Below, piece after piece: positions 51,128 to 54,883 of a DNA stretch of 54,883 nucleotides. Position 1 is the first letter of the stretch. Each line of letters starts with the position of its first letter. The DNA comes from Gammaproteobacteria bacterium (GTDB taxonomy: Bacteria > Pseudomonadota > Gammaproteobacteria > GCA-2400775): positions 1 to 54,883 of the forward strand of contig JAADIY010000009.1 in NCBI GenBank assembly GCA_013151045.1, in the 5' to 3' direction. The notes below the pieces were generated by a model. That model worked only from the letters and a program-made list of their open reading frames with translations, was not told where the DNA came from and did no database searches. Made by a program: the position numbers and the translations under genes.

Positions 51128-51391
51128 TTAGCTGTTTTTATATGCAACACTTCTGTGAGCTACTTTTACAACTATAATAACAAGCTCTGTTTCTTGAATT
51201 TCGTAAATAATACGATACACGCCTTGCCTTACACGATAACGCTCTTGCCCTGAGAGTTTGATGCATCCCTCTGCTCTTGGATCAGAGCTAATAAGCTCTA
51301 CGCGTTTTAAAATGCGTTTTATATCTTTTTTGGGAATGTTACGAAGGTCTTTTACTACAGATTTCTTAAATACAAGGCTATATTTTGCCAT
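51128..51391 (-). CDS. RelE/ParE-family toxin
   Basis: An 87-aa protein with the RelE-like mRNA interferase pattern: YSLVFKKSVVKDLRNIPKKD, CIKLSGQERYRVRQGVYRII and a terminal basic/hydrophobic strand (VVKVAHRSVAYK). It likely cleaves mRNA at the ribosome, but the catalytic residues were not confirmed. The antitoxin gene overlaps its start by 14 bases. The stop TAA is part of the attC core (AGCTAAC on the minus strand). Confidence 0.85.
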   Translation of the reverse strand: MAKYSLVFKKSVVKDLRNIPKKDIKRILKRVELISSDPRAEGCIKLSGQERYRVRQGVYRIIYEIQETELVIIVVKVAHRSVAYKNS

Positions 51392-51611
51392 GTAATTTTA
51401 AATCCTCTAGTAGCTCCTCATAACTCAATGTTGATTCATTGGCTCTTTGTGAAAATGCCTTTAAATCTTCCTGGTCTTCGCTCAAGGCAACACGTACAGC
51501 TTCGTTAACCACCTCGGATACAGATTGGTGGGTAGTTGCGGCTTTAATTCTTAGCGCTTGATGAATCTCAGTTTCAAAATAAACAGTTGATCTTTTTGAT
51601 AATTCACTCAT
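51378..51611 (-). CDS. ribbon-helix-helix antitoxin
   Basis: A 77-aa protein with an N-terminal RHH/CopG-type DNA-binding part (KRSTVYFETEIHQALRIKAA, then SVSEVVNEAVRVAL) and a C-terminal acidic, flexible part (SYEELLEDLKLHGKI) that would neutralise the toxin. ATG 51611 is preferred to a TTG 21 bases upstream because it yields the normal start of the RHH strand. Probably represses its own promoter. Confidence 0.85.
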   Translation of the reverse strand: MSELSKRSTVYFETEIHQALRIKAATTHQSVSEVVNEAVRVALSEDQEDLKAFSQRANESTLSYEELLEDLKLHGKI

Positions 51612-51634
51612 ATGACTATACCTCGCTTGCACGA

Positions 51635-51673: not shown

Positions 51674-51760
51674 GGCTAACGGCCAAGCTCACTGGCAAAA
51701 TAAAGCTGCGTCCGTTCCTCACTACGCTTTATTTTGCCAGTGAGTAGCGCCTTGTATGGC
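51674..51760 (-). other. attC-like site (downstream of the 156-aa gene)
   Basis: An imperfect hairpin with a perfect 19-bp inner stem, CTCACTGGCAAAATAAAGC at 51688-51706 and its complement at 51726-51744. Minus-strand end is GTTAGCC with CTTGGCC before it; the other end is the degenerate GCCATAC followed by AAGGCGC, as in canonical attC sites (GCCTAACAAGGCGC). A further GTTATAT stands at 51790-51796, five bases after the stop codon of the cassette gene. Confidence 0.7.
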
Positions 51761-51801: not shown

Positions 51802-52272
51802 TTACTTAACACCACAAGCTGCAACAATACTTCCAATGATGAAGCTGAAAAATGAGATGTAACCAAAAATGTAAGGGGCTACTGGTTCCCCAGTTTTTGT
51901 TTCATCAGATTTTGTTAGTGCACCCCAACCAATTTTTTCATCATAGTAGTCGCCGACTAATTTTTGGTAATGAGAAAATAGACTTTCTACATTATGAACC
52001 ATATATGCTTTATAAACACCAACAGAAATAATGCCGATAAAAAATATTGCCACAGCTAGTTTAGCTAGTAATTGAGAATCGCCATTACTAGCAATTGCAC
52101 CAAGATAAGTAAGTACAGCAACAGCACCGCCTGCATTTGTAGCAAATAAATATTTTATTGCTGATTCAGCTGAATCTTTTGATAAAGAATAAAGCTGAGA
52201 CCAACGGTGATTAATATGGTTATCTCTTGATCTTCTTAATTCTGGAGATAATTTTTCATCGGAGTATTTCAT
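51802..52272 (-). CDS. cassette-encoded membrane protein, function unknown
   Basis: 156 aa. A charged N-terminus (SPELRRSRDNHINHRWSQLY) is followed by three hydrophobic segments: GGAVAVLTYLGAIA, LLAKLAVAIFFIGIISVGVY and PYIFGYISFFSFIIGSIVAA at the C-terminus. Not recognised. ATG has an AGGAAAA site upstream, immediately after attC core GTTATAT. The C-terminal segment resembles one in the neighbouring cassette protein (52380-52739). Confidence 0.65.
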   Translation of the reverse strand: MKYSDEKLSPELRRSRDNHINHRWSQLYSLSKDSAESAIKYLFATNAGGAVAVLTYLGAIASNGDSQLLAKLAVAIFFIGIISVGVYKAYMVHNVESLFSHYQKLVGDYYDEKIGWGALTKSDETKTGEPVAPYIFGYISFFSFIIGSIVAACGVK

Positions 52273-52285
52273 TATTTTCCTTTAC

Positions 52286-52375
52286 ATATAACGACCACAA
52301 TAAGCGGTTGGGGAAACGCGCAGCGTTTTCACAGTCCGAGTGAGAAAAGCGAACGACTTGATTGTGTTGTTAGGT
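52286..52375 (-). other. attC-like site (downstream of the 119-aa gene)
   Basis: 90-base site with ACCTAAC and GTTATAT as outer cores on the minus strand, matching RYYYAAC and GTTRRRY with one deviation. CACAAT/ATTGTG and AAACGC/GCGTTT pair in the stem, with unpaired bases on one side as in attC. GCGTTTCC in the centre resembles the motif in Vibrio attC repeats. The stop codon of the cassette gene lies five bases outside. Confidence 0.8.
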
Positions 52376-52379
52376 GCAT

Positions 52380-52739
52380 TCAGCCCCATTTGTCCATCTT
52401 CTTTTTTACGTTTGAGTGTATATAAAGACCGAACAAGACTGACAATATTGCTGATAATTCTGTCTTACCTTTGCCAACAATATAGCGGAAGACTGGATAA
52501 ATTAGTAACGCGGGCGCCAGTAAAAAGGAAAGCGAAAAATAGAGAGGTAGGTACTTTAGATCATCATTCGATAGCTCTATGCCCATTCCTATCGCGCCCA
52601 CAACAAATGAGGCTAAACCAGAGTAGCCAAAGACCCAACCTGGTATTTTTCCATCAGCTGCTAGCTGGTCTGAGGAGAGTTCATTCTCGTCTATTTCGTA
52701 ACCAAGTGCTTTTCGTGTTTGTATCGTTTTCCTATCCAT
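52380..52739 (-). CDS. cassette-encoded membrane protein, function unknown
   Basis: 119 aa with two to three hydrophobic segments (PGWVFGYSGLASFVVGAIGM, LPLYFSLSFLLAPALLIYPV, LSAILSVLFGLYI) and a charged N-terminus with KALGYEIDENELSSDQLAA. Not recognised. The ATG is seven bases inside the attC core GTTAGGT at 52747-52753, the usual cassette geometry. Confidence 0.65.
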   Translation of the reverse strand: MDRKTIQTRKALGYEIDENELSSDQLAADGKIPGWVFGYSGLASFVVGAIGMGIELSNDDLKYLPLYFSLSFLLAPALLIYPVFRYIVGKGKTELSAILSVLFGLYIHSNVKKKMDKWG

Positions 52740-52760
52740 GACGTGAACCTAACGTTTACA

Positions 52761-52822
52761 CAACCAAGGGTTCAGTGTACTTGAAAACATTATCTACTCA
52801 CTTCAAGTACGCTTACCCCTTG
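52761..52822. repeat. 60-bp palindromic repeat, copy 1
   Basis: Arms CAAGGGTTCAGTGTACTTGA and TTCAAGTACGCTTACCCCTT pair imperfectly around a 16-base centre. A second copy in inverted orientation lies at 53768-53821. Copy 1 sits between an attC core and the truncated intron gene, so it marks a junction. Confidence 0.7.
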
Positions 52823-53118
52823 ATTTTCGCTTTGGACTTTCCGAATACTACCGGCCTTTACCCGGATTGGGTGAATGGATACGCAGGCGCATTCGCATGT
52901 GCTACTTAAAACAGTGGCGTAAGCCGCGTACACGTATTCGCAATCTCATTAAACTGGGCACTAGGACTCTAACAGCTGTGAGTCTTGGGCTAAGCTCTAA
53001 AGGTCCGTATCGCTTGGCAAGAACACTCGCTATGCAATCGGGAATGAGCAACAAGTGGTTAGCGAAACAAGGACTCGTCTCTGTAAGAGAACGATGGATC
53101 AAGTTTCATTATGCTTAA
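52822..53118 (+). pseudogene. C-terminal fragment of a group II intron maturase (RT)
   Basis: Only the maturase end remains: FGLSEYYRPLPGLGEWIRRR, then IRMCYLKQWRKPRTRIRNLI and the basic SNKWLAKQGLVSVRERWIKF before the stop. This is the GIIM/X domain of group II intron proteins; the reverse transcriptase part is missing, and the frame enters directly from the palindromic repeat. The complete protein would be roughly 420 aa. Opposite in orientation to the cassette genes. Confidence 0.85.
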
Positions 53119-53191
53119 CGAACCGCCTAGTGTGAACCCGCATGCTAGGTGGTGTGGGGACTGGGGTTTAGAGACTCCCGGTGACCCGATT
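53119..53191 (+). ncRNA. group II intron domains V and VI (3' end)
   Basis: Directly after the maturase stop. Domain V stem: ACCGCCTAG (53122-53130) with CTAGGTGGT (53145-53153), one wobble. A second hairpin (CTGGGG .. CTCCCGG) fits domain VI, and the end is ACCCGAT. The 3' boundary is near 53190, next to TTAGCGG, which is the complement of an attC core; class IIC-attC introns insert exactly there in this orientation. Confidence 0.75.
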
Positions 53192-53711
53192 AGCGGAAAT
53201 ATACATACCAAGTCACACCAATTGCTATTAGTATTAGTATAGCACTATAGATTCTTGCTAAAGTTTCAGAGTCAACTCCATTCCCCTCAAATGATAGCCA
53301 TAACAAGACTAACAAAATACCTGCTGTTACAAGAAAAGCATAAAATCCAATTGCTAGTAGCGGCCATTCAAATATGGCACAAGAAAACCCAAAAAGCAGG
53401 CCATAGAAGACTGCAGCCAAAACTAATGCCACTTCTGCTGCCTTGTAGCCGATTATATTTCTAAAAGTAGAAATTTGACTTGATGTACGGCCAGCGATTA
53501 CGATTAATAGCCCTATACTTATAATGGAAAAAACAGATATCAGATGGAAGCTTTTCGGTGCTGAATTTTCAGTGACGATGCTTTTAACTGTTTCTTGAAG
53601 ATTATGATATGGCAATTTGTATAGCAGACCTAACACTACACCTAACGCAAAACACCATAAAATGGCATAGCTGAATCTAATTAATATTCCTCTGAATGTT
53701 CTCTCTTCCAT
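53190..53711 (-). CDS. cassette-encoded membrane protein, function unknown
   Basis: 173 aa from ATG 53711, with four or five hydrophobic segments: FSYAILWCFALGVVLGLLY, FHLISVFSIISIGLLIVIAG, ALVLAAVFYGLLFGFSCAIF, PLLAIGFYAFLVTAGILLVL and IYSAILILIAIGVTWYVYF. An upstream GTG/ATG frame starting at 53774 would run across the attC core and is not favoured. The stop TAA coincides with the intron-attC junction. Not recognised. Confidence 0.65.
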   Translation of the reverse strand: MEERTFRGILIRFSYAILWCFALGVVLGLLYKLPYHNLQETVKSIVTENSAPKSFHLISVFSIISIGLLIVIAGRTSSQISTFRNIIGYKAAEVALVLAAVFYGLLFGFSCAIFEWPLLAIGFYAFLVTAGILLVLLWLSFEGNGVDSETLARIYSAILILIAIGVTWYVYFR

Positions 53712-53722
53712 AATTTTCAATC

Positions 53723-53762
53723 CGCTAACGTCGGTGTCATTTACGTCCAAAGTGTTGGACAC
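53723..53762 (-). other. partial attC-like site upstream of the 173-aa gene
   Basis: On the minus strand GTTAGCG (53723-53729) precedes the cassette ATG by 11 bases, with GGACGTAAATGACACCGAC before it. GTCCAA/TTGGAC at 53747-53762 forms a small hairpin. The outer partner core is not found; palindrome copy 2 and the IS110 element lie where it should be. Confidence 0.5.
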
Positions 53763-53767
53763 AACCA

Positions 53768-53821
53768 CAACCAAGGGGTCAGTGTACTTGAAGTGAGTAG
53801 ATAATATTTTTCAAGTACACT
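53768..53821. repeat. 60-bp palindromic repeat, copy 2 (inverted centre)
   Basis: Left arm AACCAAGGGGTCAGTGTACT matches copy 1; the centre GTGAGTAGATAAT is the reverse complement of that in copy 1 (ATTATCTACTCAC). The right arm ends at TTCAAGTACAC and then diverges, which probably marks the left end of the IS110 element at about 53821. Confidence 0.65.

Positions 53822-53920: not shown

Positions 53921-54883
<963 letters not shown>

Follow-up and report, generated by a model that had tools for sequence, protein, structure and literature searches.

How does a stretch of maturase-like sequence come to lie in an array of integron cassettes, on the strand opposite to theirs, with a palindromic repeat at one end and an attC core at the other? 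The window, by which we mean the whole stretch of DNA analyzed, comprises 54,883 nucleotides of contig JAADIY010000009.1 from a gammaproteobacterial draft genome (GCA_013151045.1). From the letters alone, positions 52822-53191 had been read as a truncated group IIC-attC intron inside an attC site (henceforth the sequence-only reading). The fragment is real, but its limits had to be redrawn: the start assigned to it lies in the palindrome, which ends with positions 52822-52825; the next five positions (52826-52830) read TTCGC; homology to introns begins at 52831; and the last intron base is 53190. The parts of the fragment are the following:

52831..53190, plus strand: 5'-truncated group IIC-attC intron, the last ~360 nt of ~1850 (by homology; the full-length relative L011 measures ~1850 nt)
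52831..53118, plus strand: last 95 codons of the maturase that the intron encodes, in an open frame up to a stop codon common to the relatives
53122..53153, plus strand: domain V, with the two-base bulge TG on its 3' side
53157..53187, plus strand: domain VI, with a bulged A at 53184

The frame 52822-53118 matches the Pfam GIIM model (PF08388; E=2e-4, positions 41-75 of 80), and tblastn against other (gammaproteobacterial) genomes recovered relatives of the maturase tail with identities of up to 91% over 94-95 residues. Against L002, dN is 0.06 and dS 0.8, which indicates that selection acted on the tail during most of its past; from these sequence comparisons, the fragment probably died recently. 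The locus lacks domains I-IV as well as a full reverse transcriptase, in all ~1490 of some 1850 nt. A complete copy of the intron, which the sequence-only reading had suggested seeking, was not found in the 1.95-Mb assembly. The fragment is thus a relic of a IIC-attC intron by descent rather than an active intron, and neither splicing nor retrohoming would be expected of it without domain I.

Since Rfam returned no intron model in the region at either threshold, domains V and VI were established by comparison with relatives instead. Positions 53120-53190 fold at -36.7 kcal/mol (z -4.7), and over 25 relatives 99.2% of the positions assigned to pairs are indeed paired, with 9 of the 24 pairs changed on both sides. 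The covariation score across these relatives is 0.352, against 0.112 for shuffles (reached in 0 of 500) and 0.03-0.10 for structures slid along the alignment, in which pairing falls to about half or less. The bulged branch-point A at 53184 is invariant in the 25 sequences. The maturase C-terminus and domains V/VI named in the sequence-only reading are therefore borne out by the GIIM match, the tblastn relatives, and the covarying fold alike.

In a maximum-likelihood tree of maturases, the fragment falls into a clade of 19 sequences with a support of 100/100, which includes the introns of an aadA2 integron (L107, NZ_CP015503) and a blaIMP-4 integron (L110, NZ_KU051709) as well as that of a congener (L111), and which is separate from the class C introns of Bacillota and Bacteroidota. 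This placement in the attC clade identifies the fragment as a IIC-attC intron by descent and upholds the class proposed from the letters; its best matches are IIC-attC introns, not introns outside the attC group. The two integron introns, of the S.ma.I2 / Kl.pn.I3 type of mobile integrons, resemble the fragment in maturase clade, in the sequence and structure of domains V/VI, in the CCCGAT/T 3' end (here and below, the slash marks the boundary), in the attC R'' target, and in an orientation opposed to the cassettes. On the other hand, they are full length (~1.9-2.0 kb) as against the 360-nt remnant seen here, their maturase tails are 48-51% identical to that of the fragment, and the fragment lies in a chromosomal cassette array. 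Another 5'-truncated IIC-attC intron among cassettes is likewise oppositely oriented; it lies at a contig periphery, whereas the break in the window lies inside the contig, at a repeat. Two further introns were noted in passing. One is an intron in the Shewanella baltica OS223 plasmid pS22303 (L108 1088-4077) that is split by ISSba20 (IS21 family), with both intron ends present; the other is the 5' end of another IIC-attC-like intron in a congener (G003; L094 2731-2826), behind an attC-like hairpin and cut by the contig end.

Around the fragment, a strict scan finds a single convincing attC in the array (52286-52375), the remaining attC features being read by eye:

51128..51632, minus strand: toxin-antitoxin cassette with a ParE-like toxin
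51674..51760, minus strand: attC-like site with R' GTTAGCC and arms CACTGGCAAAATAAAGC, read by eye and missed by the strict scan
51802..52272, minus strand: cassette ORF
52286..52375, minus strand: intact attC, from the strict attC scan
52380..52739, minus strand: cassette ORF downstream of the broken attC
52747..52753, minus strand: R' core GTTAGGT of the broken attC, where the next cassette starts
53190..53196, minus strand: attC R'' core CCGCTAA, with the 3' exon TAGCGG from 53191
53190..53711, minus strand: cassette ORF upstream of the broken attC, coding for a small protein with no family above cut-off
53723..53729, minus strand: R' core GTTAGCG, start of the cassette 53190..53711

The fragment, on the plus strand, thus runs against the cassette ORFs, all on the minus strand, as had been claimed, and it sits between the two cores (R'' and R') of one attC. 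In the minus-strand sequence ...TTTCCGCTAA, R'' and the stop codon that ends the cassette ORF 53711-53190 overlap. Elsewhere in the genome, contig C7 carries an integron integrase gene (L091 154-1143; G000:C7:154-1143), interrupted by an in-frame TAG and lying directly upstream of lexA at the contig end; its orientation fits the window array being its cassettes.

The 3' boundary connects the fragment to its target. Nearly all of the listed relatives read ...CCCGAT/ followed by T, mostly as TAGGC, TAGCC, or TATGCC, i.e. the bottom strand of attC R''; accordingly, the last intron base is placed at 53190 and the 3' exon reads TAGCGG. The boundary in the window, CCCGAT/TAGCGG at 53190/53191, lies beside the attC R'' core, and the end at TTAGCGG reported by the sequence-only reading is therefore confirmed as a boundary common to the relatives, with no indication that it lies elsewhere. 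The target of IIC-attC introns is TTGT/T in R'', with the 3' side at the IBS3 T (PMC7923331); R'' of the window copy (GTTAGCG) is an imperfect match to the consensus GTTRRRY. Full-length relatives start with GTACGCCC and are preceded by the hairpin of an attC bottom strand and by TTGT or a sequence close to it, the plainest case being the class 1 integron copy L107, next to aadA2, in which the left flank ends ...GCCTAACGCCAGAATTAAGCCG..CGGCTTGAATGAATTGT. From the window copy this hairpin and the TTGT are gone, such that its own 5' junction is not visible, and the R' core survives.

These observations are best explained, at a probability of about 0.9, by retrohoming of a IIC-attC intron into an attC of the chromosomal integron, followed by loss of its 5' part at a REP-like repeat. 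The intron would have retrohomed from RNA into the attC bottom strand between two cassettes, at ...TTGT/TAGCGG, and for this reason would have come to lie opposite to them; the uninterrupted attC before insertion would read ...TTGTTAGCGG. The 5' four fifths of the intron, i.e. domains I-III and the greater part of domain IV, including the bulk of the reverse transcriptase, would have been lost later, and the middle of the attC together with them. One end of this deletion appears to have been fixed at the palindrome, via either transposition-linked deletion or recombination between repeat copies. The remnant (maturase tail, V, and VI) should neither splice nor move, and the broken attC probably fuses its two neighboring cassettes into one unit, since an integrase could presumably no longer separate them.

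The repeat occurs twice in this part of the window:

52762..52825, minus strand: palindromic repeat copy 1, 64 bp, at the truncation point
53769..53821, plus strand: palindromic repeat copy 2

From the left, the order is R' core, palindrome, the 5 nt TTCGC, and fragment, with R' and the next 8 nt remaining before the palindrome. The proposal that the 5' part was lost at copy 1 thus stands as to the position of the breakpoint, which is 5 nt from the palindrome; a causal role of the palindrome in the loss may be the case but goes beyond the position itself. Beside copy 2, an IS110-family transposase is split between two frames at the contig end (window 53936-54881). The palindrome is dispersed in five copies in this genome and has relatives in two congeners; a search of plasmids and viral contigs returned none. 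We considered whether it might be the attC's own hairpin and rejected this, as other copies in the genome have no attC cores around them. The copies on contigs C23 and C24 (L089 1168-1232 and L090 84-149) abut reading frames seemingly cut at their 5' ends, as if the repeat marked deletion junctions. In being a short dispersed hairpin repeat, it resembles the REP/REPIN palindromes that go with RAYT transposases (PMC3116915, PMC3733652), from which it differs in its few copies and in that no GTAG tag could be established at the base of its stem. Y1-type transposases are present in four congeners; a search of this genome (G000) found none, and for lack of such a cognate RAYT we call the repeat REP-like only. 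In one congener (G004), the gene of a Y1 (RAYT-like) transposase is flanked by AAGGGGTCAGAGT / ACTCTGACCCCATTGATC repeats (L112 440-520 and 1240-1320), which resemble the outer arms of the palindrome. At another locus, L017, CTGACCCCATTGATCAG is seen at an intron truncation point.

What is new here is that the truncation point lies at a 64-bp palindromic repeat and that a second IIC-attC lineage has been cut there too. The latter is represented by another 5'-truncated IIC-attC intron in the same genome, on contig C30 (L088 2245-2735), which at its start abuts another copy of the palindrome, oriented as in the window (wider coordinates of the locus: L088 2184-2735, G000:C30:94683-95234). Its 3' end reads CCCGAT/TAAGCC, beside a HigBA toxin-antitoxin pair encoded on the other strand. 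At the amino acid level it is 74% identical to the blaIMP-4 integron intron L110 and 51% to L011, which is in the clade of the fragment; belonging as it does to a different lineage, it must have been truncated independently. Its domain V carries an insertion with GGAAGTGCCCTTGGGGTAG that it has in common with L007 4313-4331 (Thiodiazotropha) and with none of the other loci compared, and a search of viral contigs and of 369 genomes from this class found no further case.

Immediately upstream of their break, 4 of 12 internally truncated copies (that of the window, C30, L010, and L007) have a strong hairpin, with a score of at least 11; of 150 random control positions in these loci, 4 attain a score of 10 (binomial P about 2e-4, in a small-sample test that is post hoc, the pattern having been seen beforehand, and whose controls include coding sequence). 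Leaving out this genome, the count is 2 of 10 (P about 0.03). The hairpins of L010 and L007, which stop 2 and 7 nt short of the break, likewise recur as dispersed repeats within the respective genomes; some of the remaining breaks lie at insertion sequences. With four of 12 truncated copies, from three genomes and with different repeats, broken no more than 7 nt away from a dispersed palindrome, one could conceive that hairpin repeats set the point at which IIC-attC introns are cut off, either because REP-type palindromes preferentially land in, or bring about deletions of, the 5' part of the intron in single-stranded attC arrays, or because the reverse transcriptase switches templates to hairpin-bearing ones. 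We regard this generalization as decidedly improbable at present, and the palindrome at the truncation points as a lead and not a result; it is also the sole part that goes beyond the expected.

The same coincidence could arise if the copy had been incomplete from the start: reverse transcription, beginning at the 3' end, would have stopped early, with the cDNA end joined to nearby hairpin DNA or the template switched to a palindrome-bearing RNA. The combination of intact 3' ends and variable 5' ends in many copies fits such target-primed synthesis, and in four copies the end is no more than 7 nt away from a hairpin repeat. However, a simple aborted insertion should keep the 5' exon, i.e. the attC hairpin and TTGT, whereas here only R' and 8 nt are left, and TTGT adjoins the fragment in none of the four junctions. 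An aborted insertion that left its 5' exon whole is accordingly rejected, there being neither TTGT nor attC hairpin, and because the 5' exon is missing along with the intron's 5' part, we consider truncation at birth in general unlikely and prefer later deletion.

Doubts of another kind concern the assembly and the class of the intron. The genome is a draft of 62 contigs, the repeat occurs five times in it, and several intron copies in other genomes stop at contig ends, so that the association might in principle reflect contigs misjoined inside the 64-bp palindrome. Yet in both contigs where palindrome and intron meet, their junction is unique sequence, the palindrome copies differ in bases, and a misjoin within the repeat would alter the left flank and not the abutment; we hold such an artefact to be very improbable. 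That the fragment derives from a terminator-type class C intron with a coincidentally attC-like flank is more improbable still, to the point of being negligible. The maturase domain is indeed common to all class C introns, and the PDB match by sequence is the reverse transcriptase of the non-attC intron GsI-IIC; against this, the fragment groups at 100/100 with attC residents to the exclusion of the Bacillota and Bacteroidota class C introns, its domains V/VI and 3' end are as in the integron copies L107 and L110, and cassette cores lie on both sides.

The relic itself is ordinary, being the dead last fifth of an RNA element of a known, self-copying kind that targets integron recombination sites. 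The known set of attC-targeting introns, a family also resident in clinical resistance integrons, thereby gains a chromosomal relic, which illustrates one end state of such an insertion: a dead 3' stub, a broken attC, and two cassettes that are probably tied together. The repeated coincidence of 5' breakpoint and palindrome offers a concrete and testable clue to the way in which group II introns of bacteria may become truncated.
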